Of a stretch of 41,246 nucleotides of DNA, positions 18,972 through 41,246 are shown piece after piece. Under the pieces are notes generated by a model. It did no database searches. It was not told the DNA's origin and worked only from the letters and a program-made list of their open reading frames with translations. Numbering within the stretch: the stretch's first letter is position 1; each line of letters begins with the position of its first letter. Source of the stretch: Actinomycetes bacterium (GTDB taxonomy: Bacteria; Actinomycetota; Acidimicrobiia; Acidimicrobiales; Ilumatobacteraceae); contig JANYDH010000050.1 of assembly GCA_025359865.1 (NCBI GenBank), forward strand, positions 1-41,246, written 5' to 3'. The position numbers and the translations under genes are program-made.

Positions 18972-21287
18972 TCACCTTTGGCCCAGGCTTGTCGACCGGA
19001 ACCGACGCAAGCGGAGGCTGTTCGAGACCACGAACACGCTCGAGAACGCCATTGCTAGGCCGGCCAGCATGGGGTTCAGCAGACCCGCTGCAGCGAGGGG
19101 GAGCGCGGCCACGTTGTAGGCGAACGCCCAGAACAGGTTGGCCTTAATGGTGGCAAGGGTGCGTCGCGAGAGCCGGATGGCATCGACCGCAGCGCGCAGG
19201 TCGCCGCGGACGAGGGTGAGATCGCTCGCCTCGATCGCCACATCGGTGCCGGTACCCATCGCCAGGCCGAGGTCGGCTTGCGCCAATGCTGCAGCGTCGT
19301 TGACGCCGTCGCCGATCATCGCGACCACGCGGCCTTCTGCCTGCAGGCGCCGGATGACATCGACCTTGTCGGCCGGAAGCACTTCGGCGATGACTTCGGT
19401 GATGCCGACCTGGGCGGCCACGGACTGCGCCGCACGCGCGTTGTCGCCGGTGAGCAGCACCGGTCGCAGACCGAGTTGACGCATGCCGATGATGGCTTCT
19501 GCAGACGTGGCCTTGATCGTGTCAGACACAACCAGTACAGCGCGGGCCTGACCATCCCAGCCGACATAGATCGGCGTACGTCCTGCCGCCTCGGCTGTGT
19601 CGCGGGCAGCGGCAAGTGTGTCGTCGAGATGCATCGACCAGTCGATCAAGAACCGCTCGCGTCCAGCGACCACAGCATGACCGTCGACGATGCCCTGCAC
19701 GCCAAGCCCTTCGGTGTTGGCAAACGATTCGACCAGAGCGAGGTCGATGCCGCGGCTTGCCGCACCGGCCGCAATGGCCTGAGCGATCGGGTGCTCGGAG
19801 GCGTCTTCCAGCGACCCGGCCAGAAACAGCGCCTCGTGTTCGGTCACGCCCGTCGCAGTGATGACCTCGACCAGCGACATCTTGCCAGTGGTGACGGTTC
19901 CGGTTTTGTCAAGGACGACGGTGTCGATCTTGCGGGTCGATTCCAGCACCTCGGGACCCTTGATCAAGATGCCGAGCTGTGCTCCGCGCCCGGTGCCGAC
20001 CATCAGCGCTGTCGGAGTCGCCAACCCCAACGCGCATGGGCAGGCGATGATCAACACCGCGACGGCTGCGGTGAAGGCGGTCGTTGCGTTGTCGGTGGCC
20101 GCGGCGGTGAGCCAGAAGCCGAGCGTGGCAAACGCCAGCGCGATGACGACGGGTACGAAGATAGCCGACACTCGGTCGGCAAGGCGCTGTACCTGAGCCT
20201 TACCAGTCTGGGCTTCTTCGACCATTCGTCCGATCTGGGCGAGGGCCGTGTCGGCGCCGACGCGCGTGGCGCGCACGACGAGTCGTCCGCCAGCATTGAC
20301 CGTGGCACCGGCGACCGGATCGCCTGGCGCTACTTCGACCGGCACTGGCTCGCCGGTGAGCAGCGATGCGTCGACGGCCGATGTGCCGGTTTCGACCACG
20401 CCGTCGGTAGCGATCTTTTCACCGGGCCGCACCACGAACCGATCACCGACGACGAGTTGCTCGATAGGAATGCGCACTTCGGTGCCGTCACGAAGCACGG
20501 CGACGTCTTTCGCTCCGAGTTCGAGTAGGGCCTTCAACGCCGCGCCTGATCGTCGCTTGGCGCGTGCTTCGAAGTAGCGACCAGCCAGGATGAATACGGT
20601 GACGCCCGCGGCGACCTCGAGGTAGATCTGGCTGGAACCCATGCCGCGCTCTGGTGTGAGCGAGAAGCCGTGGCGCATCGACAAGTCGCCCGCATCGCCG
20701 AGGAACAAGGCATACAGGCTCCATCCGAACGCGGCGAGCGTGCCAACGGAGATGAGGGTGTCCATCGTGGCGGCCGCGTGCCGCAGGTTGGTGAAGGCGG
20801 CTTTGTGGAACGGCCACGCTCCCCAGGCGACCACCGGGGAAGCGAGCGTGAGCGACAGCCACTGCCAGCCATCGAATTGCAGGGCGGGAACCATCGCCAT
20901 TGCAATTACCGGCACTGCCAACACAGCCGAAATGGTCAGACGTTGGCGGAGCAGTCGGGTCGGGTCGTCCCCTGCTGCGGAGATCGATGCTGAAGAGATC
21001 GAGCCAGGGGCGGCGGAGTTGGCCGACTGCTTTGGCAGCGGAACATGCGCGGTGTACCCGGTCGCTTCGATCTGGGCGATCAGGTCGGCTGCCGTGATGT
21101 TGTCGGCGAAGACCACCTTGGCCTTCTCGGTGGCATAGTTGACCGACGCGGTCACGCCCGCCATCCGGTTGAGCTTCTTTTCGATGCGCGCCGCGCACGA
21201 CGCGCACGTCATCCCACCGATGTCAAGTTGGATCTGCGACCCGCCGGTCGAATCGCTGTGGCTGTGATCGGTGACGTCAGTAGACAT
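18972..21287 (-). CDS. copA: Copper-exporting P1B-type ATPase
   Basis: A 771-residue inner-membrane pump that expels Cu(I). The N-terminal heavy-metal domain has GMTCASC (C28, C31). Membrane helices flank an actuator domain ([24 protein letters not shown]). The metal-transport motif CPC is C416-P417-C418, the phosphorylated residue D460 is in DKTGT, the P1B-specific HP is in [11 protein letters not shown], and the hinge is [10 protein letters not shown]. All are intact. A His-rich start (DHSHSDS) may add metal binding. It is the last gene of the copper operon, beginning one base after the stop of the membrane-anchored double-domain protein, and should be controlled by the CsoR operators at 22471-22547. 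Confidence 0.96.
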
Positions 21288-22949: not shown

Positions 22950-24296
22950 ATGAGATCGAAACATTCGGGCATCGGCTGCCCAAGACCTCACCACGGCCGC
23001 GGTGTTCTGCTCGCAGTGCTGTTGTTGTCGATCTCATCGGTGTCGGCCGGGTCCGCATCAGCATCCGACTCCAACCAGACGTCTGAGCAGGTGGCTGCCG
23101 AGATACTTCGCGTCCAGGACAAGGCCGATACGACAGCGCAGCGGTTTGCCAGGGCCGAGCAGCGGTCCGCAGATCTCGCCGTGGAGATCGAGGCCGCACA
23201 GGCCCAGGTCGCCCAGACGTCGGCGCAGTACGATCAACTTCAAGCAGGACTCACCCGAGTCGCGATCAATCGATTCACCGGCGGATCTGGTGCGTCGGTC
23301 ATGGTGATGTTCGACAACTCGAACGACGAGATGCAGATGAACGTCCTGCGCAGCGTGGCGCTCGATGCCGGCGCCACCACCCTCGACACCGTCGACGCGG
23401 TGCGTACCGACCTCGAGAAGGATCGGGCGCATCTTGATGCTCTGAACAACGAAAACATCCAACTCATTGATGAGCTTGCGACGAGCCAGGCCGAGATCGG
23501 CACTCAACTCGCAGAACTCACGGTGCTGCGTGAGCATCTGAAGGATGAAGAGGTCAGGCGGGCGTACGAAGCACAACTGGCCAAGCAGCGCGCCGACGAG
23601 GCGCGTGCCGCGGCCGAGCGAGAGGCACAGGCGGCCGCCGACCAGCAAGCCAGTGCAGCCGCGGCAGCGCGAACGGTACGCGGCGGCGGTTCGCAAGCTC
23701 CGAAGCAGTCCCCGGCTTCACCGCAGTCTCCGGCCACGCCGCAGTCTCCGGCCACACCGCAGTCTCCGGCCCCGGCGGCGGATCCATCGCCGGCATCGCC
23801 GGCCTCTCCAGCTTCGCCGGCGGCCGAGCCGGACCCGGCTCCAAGTCCTACCCCGGACCCGGACCCGGCACCTGCACCGGAGCCGACTCATCCAGCGCCG
23901 GTCATCATCGGTGGATCCTGGTTGTGTCCGGTCGCCGGTCCCACCGCGTTCGGCGACACCTGGGGCGCACCGCGTTCTGGAGGTCGCAAGCACCAGGGCG
24001 TCGACATGATGAGCCCGTTCGGTACGCCGCTGGTTGCGGTCGTCGCCGGCAGCGTGACGATGAGCATCAACACCCTCGGCGGCGACACGGTCTCGCTCGC
24101 CGGTGCCGATGGCAACAAGTACTACTACGCCCACCTGTCGTCGTGGGAAGGTGGATCCCGCAGCGTCAGCGCGGGCGAGGTGATCGGCTACGTGGGCGCC
24201 ACGGGAAACACGACTGCGAACCACCTCCATTTCGAGATCCACCCCGGGGGTGGGCAGGCGGTGAACCCGTATCCGACGGTCCGTCAGCATTGTTGA
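22950..24296 (+). CDS. Secreted M23-family peptidoglycan endopeptidase
   Basis: A 448-residue exported protein. The signal peptide has a hydrophobic core [21 protein letters not shown]. Residues about 45-240 are a long coiled coil like that of EnvC/RipA-type hydrolases. Residues 245-318 are a Pro/Ser/Ala linker with PQSPAT repeats, suited to crossing the wall. The C-terminal M23 domain has the zinc ligands HxxxD ([12 protein letters not shown]) and HLHFEIH; the catalytic HLSS is also present (YYYAHLSSW). All zinc ligands are intact, so it should cut peptidoglycan cross-links; coiled-coil members often regulate cell separation. It has its own near-leaderless promoter and stands between csoR and a toxin-antitoxin pair. 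Confidence 0.92.
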
Positions 24297-33450: not shown

Positions 33451-34200
33451 GTGGACATCTCTCTCGACGGCAAAGTTGCATTGGTCACTGGAGCATCGAA
33501 GGGCATCGGCAAGGCCATCGCGAAGACGCTGGCGGAATCCGGAGCGCGGGTGATGCTGGTCTCGCGCAAGATCGACCAACTCCACGCCGCTGCAGCCGAT
33601 ATCCAAGGCGATACTGCCGTCTACGCTGCGAACGTCGGCGATCTCGACGCCGCTACGGCCTGCGTGGCGGCAACAGTCGAACGCTTCGGCGGCCTCGACA
33701 TTCTGGTCAACAACGCGGCAACGAACCCGTATTACGGCGCCACACTCGGTGTCGACCCGGGCCGCTTCGACAAGACATTCCAGGTGAACCTCAAAGGTCC
33801 ACTGTTTTGGTGCCAGGCTGCCTGGGATGCGGCGATGAAGGACCATCCCGGTGTCATCGTGAACGTCGCCTCGGTCGGCGGCTTACGTGCCGAAGGTGGT
33901 CTCGGGGTGTACAACCTCACCAAAGCCGCGCTGATCCATCTCACCCGCCAACTCGCTTCGGAACTCGGCCCGACGCGCGTTGTCGGCGTCGCACCTGGTC
34001 TGGTGCAGACAGACTTTGCAGCCTTTTTGGTCGACAACTTCGGTGACCGGCTGGCGGCCCAGTTACCGCTCAAACGGCTCGGCGAGCCGCAGGACATTGC
34101 CAATCTCGTGGCCTTCCTGGCCTCACCGGCCGCCAGTTGGATCACCGGGGAAACCTACGTGATCGATGGCGGTGCCGGCGTCCGCAGCGCCAGCGCGTAG
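33451..34200 (+). CDS. Short-chain dehydrogenase/reductase (FabG-like)
   Basis: A 249-residue classical SDR. The NAD(P) motif is TGASKGIG (residues 13-20), NNAATN follows, and the catalytic S141, Y154 and K158 are present. The C-terminal GETYVIDGGAGVRSA is typical of FabG-like enzymes. GTG 33451 is six bases after TAGCGT, which itself overlaps the CorC stop, so the gene may have its own leaderless transcript or be read from the upstream operon. The last 46 bases overlap the convergent MFS gene. The substrate is not predictable. Confidence 0.92.
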   Translation: MDISLDGKVALVTGASKGIGKAIAKTLAESGARVMLVSRKIDQLHAAAADIQGDTAVYAANVGDLDAATACVAATVERFGGLDILVNNAATNPYYGATLGVDPGRFDKTFQVNLKGPLFWCQAAWDAAMKDHPGVIVNVASVGGLRAEGGLGVYNLTKAALIHLTRQLASELGPTRVVGVAPGLVQTDFAAFLVDNFGDRLAAQLPLKRLGEPQDIANLVAFLASPAASWITGETYVIDGGAGVRSASA

Positions 34201-37544: not shown

Positions 37545-38331
37545 GCGCCGTGGCTGCCTTCGTATCTCGCAGCCACAGTTCCAGACGGGTGGCTACTTGC
37601 GCCGGCTGCTGAACGTGCGCAGCATGTCCGGCGCCGAAGATCGTGCCGAACGAACCGTGCGGGACCGATGCGGCAATCCGTTCGGCCATCGGATGGAACT
37701 TCAGATCATGCTCGCCGGCCATCCCCAGCACGGGCATGTTCAACGAGTGCAGCCGGTCCCACAACGGAACCTGGGTTCCGGTTCCGGCCAGGCGGAGACT
37801 CGTTGCGAGACCCTCGGCTGTGTTGCGCAGTCGGTCGCGTCGATCCTCATCGGTCAGCGCGAGGCCAGCGAACAATGGCTGAGCCACCCACTCCTCGAGG
37901 AACGATTCGATTCCGGATTCGAGCAGTCGTGTGGCGAGCTGGTCGTCGGTTGCTCGCCGCGCGAGACGTTCGTCGTCGTCGACGATTCCGGGCGAAGTGC
38001 TCAGCACCGCGACGCGGTCGGCAATGTGCGGGTACATCAAGGCGAGGTGGAGCAGTACCCGTCCACCAAGGCTGTAGCCCACGTAGGTGGCGCGCCCGGT
38101 GGTCGATGCAATCAGGTCGGCAGTGGTTCGTAGATCGGCACGGATCGAGCCGGAATCGCCGTGCCCCGGTAGATCGACGATGACCACCTCGTAGCCCAAT
38201 GCGGCGATGCGTTCAGCGACCGGTATCCACGACCGCCCTGTCTGGGTGAAGCCATGGATGAACACCACCCGTCGGCCGTTGCCGGACAGTCGAGCGGCAA
38301 GCGGGCCCGACAGAGGCCGCCAGTCAGACAT
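37534..38331 (-). CDS. menH: Alpha/beta hydrolase, MenH-like
   Basis: A 265-residue hydrolase: oxyanion segment VFIHGFTQTGRSW, nucleophile elbow GYSLGG, acid in GEHDLKFH and catalytic His in GAGHAAHVQQP. The sequence and menaquinone context favour MenH (SHCHC synthase), though other hydrolases of this fold look alike. The frame runs to 38667 through the DsbA gene, but ATG 38331 is the proper start by homology; it lies eight bases inside the end of that gene, so the two are coupled. Confidence 0.75.
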   Translation of the reverse strand: MSDWRPLSGPLAARLSGNGRRVVFIHGFTQTGRSWIPVAERIAALGYEVVIVDLPGHGDSGSIRADLRTTADLIASTTGRATYVGYSLGGRVLLHLALMYPHIADRVAVLSTSPGIVDDDERLARRATDDQLATRLLESGIESFLEEWVAQPLFAGLALTDEDRRDRLRNTAEGLATSLRLAGTGTQVPLWDRLHSLNMPVLGMAGEHDLKFHPMAERIAASVPHGSFGTIFGAGHAAHVQQPAQVATRLELWLRDTKAATALSR

Positions 38332-39058
38332 CGCTGCCCGTTTCGGGATCGGCATCGGCATCGGCGACGCCATCGGCATCGACATCGGCATCGGCATCGG
38401 CGACGCGAGCGGCGAGGCGGCGGAGCACGCGTACAAATACATCGGTGTCCTGGGCTCCAGGCACCATCCATGCCGTGGACTGGGTGGGGTCGGAAAAGAC
38501 GAACGTCGGCACTGCTGTAATTCCGTTGTCTTGCGCATGGGCGATGAAGTCGCGGACCTCGGTGAGGCCGTCGGTGGTGTCGAGAAAGGAGCGGACGGCG
38601 CTGTGGTCAAGTCCGGCGTCGGCCGCGCAATCGGCCAATACGTCACGGTCTGCGATGTCGAGGCCATCTTCGAAGTACGCGCGCAGCAGTCGCTCCTTCA
38701 CTTCGTGCTGGCCGCCGGTCTGCTCCGCAAACCACAGCAACCGGTGGGCGAGGAGTGTGTTGGCGCGCAGCGCACGCTCCATGTGGAAGGTGATTCCATC
38801 AACCGCCGCCACATCGGTGACGTGTTGAATGATCTGTGCGGCGCGTTCCGGACCGCCGAATTTTTTGGCGTACGCCTCGATGACGGGTGTGTTCGTGCCA
38901 GGTACTGCGGTGGGGTCCAACTGATACGGCCGATAGACGATGTCGACGTCGATCGCATCGGCCACTTCGGCAAGCGCGCGCTCGAACCGGCGCTTGCCGA
39001 TGTAGCACCAGGGGCACACGACATCTGACCAGATCTCCACCGCAAGCGTGGTACGCAT
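38324..39058 (-). CDS. DsbA-family oxidoreductase, FrnE-like
   Basis: A 244-residue cytoplasmic thioredoxin-fold protein with active site CPWC (C15-C18) in SDVVCPWCYIGKRRF and the FrnE-type helical insert (HMERALRANTLLAHRLL). The cis-Pro loop is ITAVPTFVFSD. It has no signal peptide, unlike periplasmic DsbA. The last about 30 residues are a low-complexity Ala/Asp tail (ADADADVDADG) made by a hexanucleotide repeat and absent from the family. It heads a two-gene unit with menH and is divergent from menD. FrnE proteins act in oxidative stress or polyketide pathways; the role here is open. Confidence 0.85.
   Translation of the reverse strand: MRTTLAVEIWSDVVCPWCYIGKRRFERALAEVADAIDVDIVYRPYQLDPTAVPGTNTPVIEAYAKKFGGPERAAQIIQHVTDVAAVDGITFHMERALRANTLLAHRLLWFAEQTGGQHEVKERLLRAYFEDGLDIADRDVLADCAADAGLDHSAVRSFLDTTDGLTEVRDFIAHAQDNGITAVPTFVFSDPTQSTAWMVPGAQDTDVFVRVLRRLAARVADADADVDADGVADADADPETGSDV
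38348..38402. repeat. ATCGGC hexanucleotide array in DsbA-like gene
   Basis: About nine imperfect copies of ATCGGC with GACGCC interruptions. It encodes the acidic Asp-Ala tail of the minus-strand FrnE-like protein and ends 17 bases before the menH start, so length change would alter only this tail. Confidence 0.8.
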
Positions 39059-39066
39059 CCGACCCT

Positions 39067-39084
39067 ACGATAGTGCCGTATCGT
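39067..39084. promoter_or_regulatory. Inverted repeat in the dsbA-like/menD divergent promoter
   Basis: ACGATA-GTGCCG-TATCGT, perfect six-base arms. It carries -10-like words for both strands: TACGAT (39066-39071) towards menD and TATCGT towards the FrnE-like gene. The divergent gap is only 24 bases, so one bound protein could govern both. Confidence 0.45.
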
Positions 39085-40774
39085 GGCGCCTGTGCCCGCG
39101 CCCGCGACCCGTTCGGAATCCGTTGCCGACGTGCAGGCGACGTTCTGCGCAACGCTCGTCGACCAGTGGGTGCTCGATGGTGTCACCCATGCCGTGGTTG
39201 CCCCTGGATCGCGCAGCACCCCCATGGCGTTGGCGCTCGCCAACCATGCCGACGTTCACGTCCATGTGTTCCACGACGAGCGTTCGGCTGCATTCGCGGC
39301 GCTCGGAATCGGACTGTCGTCGGCAGTACCAGCGGTCCTCCTGTGTACAAGCGGGACTGCCGCCACGCACTTCCATGCAGCGGTGGCCGAGGCCGACCTG
39401 TCGTGCGTGCCGATGTTGGTGCTCACCGCCGACCGTCCACCGGAACTGCTGCATGTCGGCGCACCACAGACGATCGATCAGACCAAGCTGTATGGCCATG
39501 CGGTGCGGTGGTTTCACGATCCGGGCGTCGCGTCGGCGCTTGCCGCTGGGTCGTGGCGATCGTTGGCGCGTCAGGCGTTGTCGGCCACGGTAGGAGCCCA
39601 TCCAGGCCCGGTGCATCTCAACTTGCCGTTTCGTGAGCCGTTGATCGGTATCGCCGGCGACCTACCGGTGGCTCATCTCGGACCGCTCCTTGATGAGGCA
39701 ATGGCGCTTCGGTTGGATGGTCTGGCAGTGGCAATGGGGTGCGAACGCGGTGTCATCGTTGCCGGACGCGGGGTCGATGATCCGGCAGCAGTCGAGTCAT
39801 TGGCGGCGTTGACGGGATGGCCGATCCTGGCCGACCCGCGTTCTGGCTGCCGCGGATTGCCGCATTCGGTGGCTGCGTTCGATGCGATCCTGCGTCACGA
39901 GGGATTCGCTGATTCCCATGTGCCAGATGTAGTCGTCCATCTTGGCGAGCCACCGGCGTCGAAGGTGCTTGCGCACTGGTTGGCGGCGGCCACTGGAGTG
40001 CAGGTACGAGTCCATCCAACTCGCTCGGTCATCGATCCAGCTCATCAGATCACGCACCGGGTGGTCGCTTCGGTCGGCGGATTCTGCAGGTCACTCGCCA
40101 ACGAGTTGGTCGGCGCAGCGGATTCGAACTGGAGCCGAGACTGGATTTGCGTCGACCGTCAGGTTCGTGATGTGTTCGATGCGCAGTTAGGTCAGTCATC
40201 CGGATTGTCCGAACCTGTTGTCGCCCGCGTCGTTTCGCAGTTCCCTGGCCGCGTGATGGTGGCGTCGTCGATGCCGATACGCGATCTCGAATGGTTCGGC
40301 GCGTCGAACCAATCCGCTCTCGTCTCATGTAACCGCGGTGCGAACGGTATCGACGGCACGATTGCCACGGCGATCGGGATTGCGGTGGTGGAAGGCGCGC
40401 CGGTGGTGGTGCTGCTCGGAGATGTTGCGTTCCTGCACGATGCGTCGTCGCTCACGGCCCTTTGCCTACGTGGCGTCGACGTGCGGATTGTCGTGGTCGA
40501 CAACGATGGAGGCGGGATATTTTCGTTCCTTGCGCAGGCTGACGTACTCAGCGACGACCGGTTCGAGTTGCTGTTCGGCACTCCCCACAGTACCGATCTC
40601 GTAGCGCTCGCTGCTGCGCACGGACTACCGGCCCGTACCGTCGATCATGTCGAAGAACTCCGCGCTGCGTTGGTCGAACCCGGCCCGTGGCTGGTGCGTG
40701 TGCCGAGCGGACGCGCCGCCAATGTTGCCGTCCATCGCACGCTGAACCAAGCAGCAGCCGACGCCATCACCTGA
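39083..40774 (+). CDS. menD: SEPHCHC synthase (menaquinone biosynthesis)
   Basis: A 563-residue thiamine-diphosphate enzyme joining 2-oxoglutarate to isochorismate. VAPGSRSTPMALAL and FHDERSAAFAALG (with the ThDP Glu) are MenD signatures; TADRPPELLHVGAPQTIDQ follows. The C-terminal ThDP-binding part has LLGDVAFLHDASSL and VVDNDGGGIFSFL. All expected domains are present and the length is normal. Start GTG 39083 is the first in-frame start before VADVQATFCATLV; GTG 39092 is possible. It lies near menE and menA but in a separate transcription unit. Confidence 0.94.
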   Translation: MAPVPAPATRSESVADVQATFCATLVDQWVLDGVTHAVVAPGSRSTPMALALANHADVHVHVFHDERSAAFAALGIGLSSAVPAVLLCTSGTAATHFHAAVAEADLSCVPMLVLTADRPPELLHVGAPQTIDQTKLYGHAVRWFHDPGVASALAAGSWRSLARQALSATVGAHPGPVHLNLPFREPLIGIAGDLPVAHLGPLLDEAMALRLDGLAVAMGCERGVIVAGRGVDDPAAVESLAALTGWPILADPRSGCRGLPHSVAAFDAILRHEGFADSHVPDVVVHLGEPPASKVLAHWLAAATGVQVRVHPTRSVIDPAHQITHRVVASVGGFCRSLANELVGAADSNWSRDWICVDRQVRDVFDAQLGQSSGLSEPVVARVVSQFPGRVMVASSMPIRDLEWFGASNQSALVSCNRGANGIDGTIATAIGIAVVEGAPVVVLLGDVAFLHDASSLTALCLRGVDVRIVVVDNDGGGIFSFLAQADVLSDDRFELLFGTPHSTDLVALAAAHGLPARTVDHVEELRAALVEPGPWLVRVPSGRAANVAVHRTLNQAAADAIT

Positions 40775-40790
40775 CGAACGATGACCAGCT

Positions 40791-40840
40791 CAACAGGCTG
40801 TCGCACCGTGCGGGTGGGGTGTGGCGGGATCCCGACCTGA
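40791..40840 (+). repeat. Direct repeat, left copy
   Basis: CAACAGGCTGTCGCA (40791-40805) is followed by GGGTGGGGTGTGGCGG and the palindrome CGGGATCCCG (40825-40834). The same 15 bases and a similar follow-on recur at 41038-41090, a spacing of 247 bases. Confidence 0.7.
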
Positions 40841-40869
40841 CTTCACCGATGTGAGTGGTGTGGCGTGGT

Positions 40870-40926
40870 CGACACGTGGAGGCACGTGTGCCTACGTAGC
40901 GACACGTGCCTCCACGTGTCGCTACG
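40870..40926. repeat. Nested perfect palindromes with four CACGTG boxes
   Basis: Hairpin A pairs 40870-40889 with 40902-40921 (20 perfect pairs, 12-base loop containing CTACGTAG). Hairpin B pairs 40895-40908 (CGTAGCGACACGTG) with 40913-40926 around CCTC. A smaller hairpin pairs 40872-40878 with 40883-40889 around GAGG. A excludes the other two. It begins 96 bases after the menD stop and has no T-run on the plus side. Confidence 0.9.
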
Positions 40927-40990
40927 ATCAGCGATTTGAACTCGCCACGGCGGAGACCTGGTCCCCAGCCGACTGCCCCTCAGTCGAGCG

Positions 40991-41245
40991 TCACTCCACC
41001 TCAGCCCGAGGGCTAAGCTTTGGCGTTGGGTTGTTGCCAACAGGCTGTCGCAATATGTGGGTGGGGTTGGCGGTACCAGATCCCGATTTCGATCCCGATC
41101 CCGATCCCGGCCGTGCGGTCGCGCTGCAGCGTGAACGTTCGTTGCATGACAGGCGGGCGTGGTGGAAGTTTGGATCAGCGACCACGACGGCTGCGGGCAG
41201 GATCGCGTCGACTTTCATGTCGCCAGCGCCGATAGCTCGACGCGA
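40991..41245 (-). CDS. Possible 3' end of a gene entering from the right
   Basis: A minus-strand frame is open from the window edge to a stop at 40991. Near the edge the codons look coding (SRRAIGAGDMKVDAILPAAV), but after about residue 38 the frame passes through the hexanucleotide array and the direct repeat (SGSGSKSGSG, then NPTHILRQPVGNN), which looks non-coding. I do not recognise a family. It may be the end of a real gene read into repeat DNA, or chance. Confidence 0.25.
   Translation of the reverse strand, partial: SRRAIGAGDMKVDAILPAAVVVADPNFHHARLSCNERSRCSATARPGSGSGSKSGSGTANPTHILRQPVGNNPTPKLSPRAEVE
41038..41090 (+). repeat. Direct repeat, right copy
   Basis: CAACAGGCTGTCGCA (41038-41052), then GTGGGTGGGGTTGGCGG and AGATCCCGAT. 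The match to 40791-40840 is exact in the first 15 bases and diverges with small insertions afterwards. Confidence 0.7.
41079..41108 (+). repeat. GATCCC hexanucleotide array
   Basis: Five units, the second being GATTTC. It starts inside the right direct repeat. On the minus strand it would encode GSGSGSKSGSG in the possible partial gene below. Confidence 0.85.
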
Positions 41246-41246
41246 C

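Follow-up and report, generated by a model that had tools for sequence, protein, structure and literature searches.

The palindrome and its setting

The window, meaning the whole 41,246-nucleotide stretch of DNA under analysis, ends in repeated sequence: positions 40789-41246 are its sole multi-copy repeat when compared with 101 repeat-bearing stretches of the same genome. Three other window matches, each single and of 67-76% identity, lie inside called genes (19202-19478, 23917-24296 and 34074-34155). Similarity to the repeat begins 15 bp past the stop codon of an ORF labelled menD in the preliminary description, a putative name, and a 52-bp palindrome, itself 325 bp from the contig end, begins 96 bp past the same stop. 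The features of this region are as follows.

39083..40774, + strand: upstream neighbour, the ORF labelled menD (putative name)
40793..40869, + strand: left flanking repeat module "Lf" (CTGTCGCA...GGTGTGGCGTGGT), present in many but not all copies
40870..40921, no strand assigned: 52-bp palindromic repeat unit with 20-bp perfect arms, a 12-base loop and five NACGTN boxes on a 10-bp period (from direct reading, shuffles and the copy search)
40895..40926, no strand assigned: alternative hairpin of the right arm, 14 pairs, loop 40909-40912, which requires the flank CTACG (4 of 33 near-complete copies)
40922..41008, + strand: right flanking repeat module "Rf" (GCGATCAGCGATTYGAACTCGCC...CCTCAGCCC), present in many but not all copies
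41013..41246, + strand: start of a further repeat, with half of a TTTGGCGTTGGG hairpin (from 41019) and then a CAGGCTGTCGCA-ended element, within which the contig stops

Farther upstream, the end of a minus-strand ORF (38324-39058) is a run of Asp-Ala repeats (window 38324-38400; DADADVDADGVADADADP), an unusual low-complexity coding sequence.

By direct reading, positions 40902-40921 are the exact reverse complement of 40870-40889 (CGACACGTGGAGGCACGTGT), and the two arms enclose a loop at 40890-40901. The second arm can also fold by itself, with 40895-40908 pairing with 40913-40926 to give 14 pairs and a loop of 4; the corresponding hairpin of the first arm has 7 pairs only. The 20-pair hairpin with its 12-base loop and the overlapping 14-pair hairpin of the preliminary description were both confirmed, and its four CACGTG boxes are present at 40873, 40883, 40903 and 40913. 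Absent from that description were a central TACGTA at 40893 and the strictness of the spacing, given that all five boxes of the 52-bp palindrome fall on an exact 10-bp period, with one ACGT per 10 bp.

The folding of the palindrome is more than chance. Its fold energy gives z = -7.0 as DNA and -6.7 as RNA against 200 dinucleotide shuffles of 40850-40945, and no shuffle folded equally well (0/200 for DNA and 0/200 for RNA). The hairpins had been called mutually exclusive, which they are on paper; the calculated energies favour the long hairpin over the two-hairpin form by 5.4 kcal/mol as RNA (-40.9 vs -35.5 kcal/mol) and make the two forms near-equal as DNA (-26.7 for the long form vs -26.1 kcal/mol).

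Copies, modules and sequence variation

The palindrome, whole or partial, occurs in at least 43 places in the source genome (4.99 Mb, 219 contigs). This count combines at least 40 places from a 74-base search with two found by an arm pattern (C186 and C124:1196) and one found by a box-pair pattern (C74); the 74-base search gave 40 distinct places among 82 two-strand matches and is a lower bound, with 40 of 55 first-look candidates scored. A 16-base arm at up to two mismatches gave 42 + 43 matches, compared with 2 + 2 for the reversed-pattern control. The preliminary description had proposed a genome search and had named a lack of copies elsewhere and a lack of conservation, along with the absence of a transcript end or protein binding, as telling against its interpretation. 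Of these, a lack of copies is contradicted by those found, and a lack of conservation holds as to relatives, given that 0 of 60 relatives, including four of the same genus, had a match to the palindrome.

Wider searches were likewise negative. A 221-base module, searched in 220 other genomes of the family with at most three candidates scored in each, gave only two weak matches (G111 and G237), which are probably due to chance, as their E values of 3.9e-4 and 6.6e-4 were computed per genome and 221 genomes were searched. Three modules of the source genome had no match in 282 kb of the congener G001 or in 244 kb of the congener G002. Inverted repeats of at least 12 bp, excluding masked N runs, number 6 in G001 and 17 in G002, vs 9 in 254 kb of the source genome (G000), a sample of contigs without listed palindrome copies that therefore gives no density; none of these inverted repeats was judged by eye to be recurrent. 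A 26-mer of the palindrome and a 24-base hairpin pattern had no exact match among the other species in genome_contigs, a search that diverged copies would escape. The repeat had no match in phages, plasmids or viral contigs, and an origin from any of these was rejected; like genome_contigs, these collections may omit the records of the source genome itself. No description of this repeat was found in the open-access literature by title or abstract start.

In many cases the palindrome lies in the middle of a larger dispersed repeat, which in the window spans 40793-41008. The same 52-mer was found to follow two or more different left modules and to precede several different right ones, and the 52-bp palindrome forms the conserved core of this modular mosaic. 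Most copies have at least one flank module in common, so larger modules that were duplicated, or that underwent gene conversion, could account for a good deal of the dispersal. In copy L103, neither side resembles the flank modules tested, which suggests that the palindrome may be able to stand alone, and several other copies are unlike these modules on one side. Among the relatives of the flanks that lack the palindrome, L132, L135 and L147 were compared by eye, and each could reflect loss of sequence between short repeats rather than an empty site; others, such as L160, may represent the unfilled state.

The number of 52-mers depends on the cut-off. There are 36 full-length copies at up to 11 mismatches (and two further truncated matches), 34 regular copies after two rearranged ones are removed, 33 near-complete copies at up to five mismatches with the first ACGT intact, and 28 copies by end pattern. 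The consensus sequence is exact in 8 of the 36 full-length copies, the window copy among them, and both arms are intact in 11 of the 33 near-complete copies. In the 34 regular copies, 33 arm-pair changes break pairing and none is compensated, where changes common to related copies are counted repeatedly and 14 arm changes are distinct; inclusion of the two rearranged copies raises the number of pair-breaking changes to 46, again with no compensation. Such uncompensated changes speak against selection on each copy to keep its arms paired.

Variation is lower in the core than in the flanks. Variability among 18 copies, hand-picked for alignable flanks and with the truncated L106 left out, is 1.8% in the core vs 12.8% in the left flank and 11.8% in the right. 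Pairwise difference among 14 copies, chosen for having no more than 12 mismatches over 45 positions in each flank, is 3.1% in the core vs 15.8% on the left and 11.1% on the right (Wilcoxon p = 0.001 and 0.006, with copies that are not independent). The right flank is 3-9% variable beside the palindrome and 17-20% farther out; the left flank has no such rise, and its block from -20 to -11 varies as little as the core does (1.7%). Within the palindrome, the 34 regular copies show changes at 6 of 20 ACGT-core positions and at 13 of the 32 remaining ones, which is no clear difference. The greater uniformity of the core could stem from gene conversion at breaks in the palindrome, from a core that moved into older repeats at a later time, or from protein binding. 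Because variability rises with distance on the right and does not on the left, the profile favours none of the three clearly.

Arrays with both ends intact measure 12 bp (L132), 22 bp (L081), 52 bp (the common form) or 72 bp (L075 and L078) and hold 1, 2, 5 or 7 boxes, such that their lengths differ by whole 10-bp steps. The 72-bp palindromes, with seven ACGT boxes, lie at L078:4024-4095 and L075:4098-4169, and that of L078 contains one 10-bp unit three times. The copies of L079, L080 and L083 are truncated and are not stepped by 10 bp.

A second palindromic family lies beside the first, in the form of a 40-bp TTTGGCGTTGGG...CCCAACGCCAAA hairpin (for example, L121:4602-4641 and L126:3889-3928). 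Its TTTGGCGTTGGG end pattern, at up to three mismatches, has 194 matches in the source genome, 0 for the reversed control and 0 in the 60 relatives. Of the inward pairs that this end forms within the 101 stretches (796 kb), 54 are exactly 40 bp in span and 17 are 350-598 bp; the stretches were chosen around repeats, so that neither number is a genome total. The long pairs are read as the 40-bp hairpin, apparently opened by an insert with CAGGCTGTCGCA ends. This MITE-like element of 350-598 bp, seemingly placed in the hairpin loop, is seen at L094:3366-3795 and in 16 others, and TTGA is found on both sides of the CAGGCTGTCGCA-ended element in several copies. On contig C19, from which both L124 and L116 derive, tandem GATGTCGATGTTGATGTGGTC-like units adjoin a copy of the 40-bp hairpin (L124, bases before 281).

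Gene context and alternative readings

The position of the copies was analysed with genes called by a codon-usage script and with 41 genuine clusters, which are the 42 listed minus a lone arm within a gene (L077:3426); L082 and L083 of the 43 places are absent from this set. Forty of the 41 lie outside called genes, and the other overlaps an ORF (L100) whose start was probably called too far upstream. Ten clusters are between convergent genes, 10 between tandem genes and 4 between divergent genes, and 16 are at contig edges. Convergent gaps therefore account for 10 of 24 informative copies, compared with 45 of 276 gaps of at least 50 bp without counted elements, a background that is not length-matched (Fisher p = 0.005); the deficit of divergent gaps is not significant (p = 0.24). 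Across three gap-length classes, the convergent share is 8/16, 1/12 and 17/56 with repeat motifs vs 19/130, 10/51 and 11/80 without, and the 150-300-bp class has no convergent excess (1/12 vs 10/51).

The convergent excess, the distance of 96 bp from the upstream stop codon and the strong hairpin on the plus strand, which the palindrome also offers on the other strand, could suggest a bidirectional (I-shaped) transcription terminator or a protector of mRNA 3' ends after genes. Such a function is nevertheless unlikely. No T-run, as expected for an intrinsic terminator, was seen by eye on either side of the palindrome, 4 of the 24 informative copies lie between divergent genes, and arm changes are never compensated. 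The convergent excess itself is measured against gaps of unmatched length and disappears in the middle length class, 17 of the 41 clusters are unclassed (16 at contig edges and the one ORF overlap), and the passages cited from PMC3733652 describe a convergent and tandem bias for known REPs as well. The absence of compensation also bears on the proposal, in the preliminary description, of a two-state RNA switch between one long hairpin and two short ones. Both folds are possible on paper, but the long one is better as RNA by the margin given above, all 33 pair-breaking changes in the 34 regular copies stand uncompensated, and the CTACG flank that gives 14 Watson-Crick pairs follows just 4 of the 33 near-complete copies. 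No Rfam family reached its gathering score in the window. A switch of this kind is very improbable, and the proposal is not supported.

Uncompensated substitutions are expected where sequence, rather than pairing, matters, and it is conceivable that a candidate dimeric protein bound along one helix face of the five ACGT boxes keeps the core uniform. Such a protein might be a regulator, a nucleoid- or chromosome-organising protein, or a recombinase that moves the repeat. The exact 10-bp phasing, the whole 10-bp steps between intact arrays and a core variability of 1.8%, compared with about 12% in the flanks, are all consistent with a protein-binding array. This reading is tentative, as slippage between repeated boxes would also yield 10-bp steps, constraint on the ACGT cores is not visibly greater than on the spacers (6/20 vs 13/32 changed), and some 43 scattered copies would fit no single regulon. 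An assembly artefact, in which the palindrome was misjoined to the end of menD and the contig stopped inside a repeat, is very improbable. The window copy is indeed near the end of its own contig, and in 16 of 41 clusters no called gene intervenes before a contig end, but 24 clusters are inside contigs with called genes on both sides, and copies vary in point changes and module order. The internal clusters and the differences between copies indicate that the family is not an artefact, and only the exact neighbour of a copy at a contig end could be wrong. The repeats probably help to explain the broken assembly, with those 16 palindrome clusters at contig edges.

Origin of the repeat and known systems

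The search for a mobiliser covered the families PF01797, PF01609 and PF00872. The Y1/RAYT transposase (Pfam PF01797) had 0 matches in the source genome, in a search with a positive control in 5 of 14 genomes, and a RAYT/IS200 origin was rejected on that basis; given that the assembly is 96.6% complete, a Y1 transposase gene could have been missed. Other transposase matches in the genome comprise two to PF01609 and three to PF00872. The surroundings of these genes lack the repeats, beyond isolated matches of 10-13 bases with up to two mismatches, and exact AGGCTGTCGCA-type ends form no inward pair 700-6000 bp apart among the 89 listed. As none of these transposases bears or adjoins such ends, they were rejected as the source. 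L182 and L139 share a 265-bp match of 74% identity outside the repeats described.

The feature at 40870-40921 is probably one copy of a species-specific, non-autonomous palindromic intergenic repeat that has spread as DNA and whose core is homogenised or constrained; most likely, this is a DNA module of a parasitic or mobile kind and not an RNA switch. The "mobile palindromic element" of the preliminary description stands as a dispersed repeat family, and its mobility is something that we infer. The repeat would spread as non-autonomous DNA, in which the strands adopt hairpins or a cruciform, and it would be copied by an enzyme acting in trans. DNA is prone to break at long palindromes, and gene conversion initiated there, or constraint from a binding protein, could then keep the core uniform. 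It is rather doubtful that the phased array of ACGT boxes serves as the recognition core of a RAYT-free system for spreading and homogenising intergenic palindromes, in which a putative binding protein holds the core several-fold more uniform than the flanks. A repeat-rich 5-Mb genome in which no RAYT was found, with two palindromic families not found in four congeners, offers a test case for the origin and uniformity of such repeats without a known mobiliser.

The nearest parallels are REP, BIME and REPIN sequences, described in the cited parts of PMC3733652, PMC3116915 and PMC2817692 as short, high-copy intergenic palindromes that form mosaic composites and lie mostly in convergent or tandem gaps. 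In the passages of PMC3733652 on gene context and origin, known REPs prefer tandem and convergent gaps, and the GTAG-type REPs are attributed to RAYT transposases. The copy number and position of the present repeat agree with this pattern, apart from the lack of a convergent excess in 150-300-bp gaps. In contrast to REPs of 20-40 bp, the unit here is 52 bp and consists of an array of five 10-bp boxes, and no Y1 transposase was found in this genome. A GTAG or CGTC tag, or its complement, lies within six bases of the 52-mer in only 4 of 33 copies, and the GTAG present in the palindrome is in the loop rather than at an end. CGTC-type REPs are closer in one respect, as the same source, in the part cited, presents them as palindromic repeats without a dedicated transposase. 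They have stems of 8-9 bp, loops of 4-5 bases and a CGTC, TGTC or CCTC tag (PMC3733652, same part), whereas the present repeat has 20-bp arms, a 12-base loop and no regular tag.

A likeness also exists to bacterial MITEs, small dispersed elements that in the cited portion of PMC2229807 include Correia, the pneumococcal repeat unit, ERIC/RU-1, RU-2 and RU-3. The 52-bp palindrome differs in that no separate terminal repeats were seen, the whole unit being one palindrome, and in that no autonomous partner with the same ends was found among the PF01609 and PF00872 genes. As to target-site duplication, the relatives without the palindrome that were compared by eye could also have arisen by deletion between short repeats. 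In short, with neither the transposase nor the tag of a REP, the element is not classed as one, but it works like a REP/BIME or a MITE.
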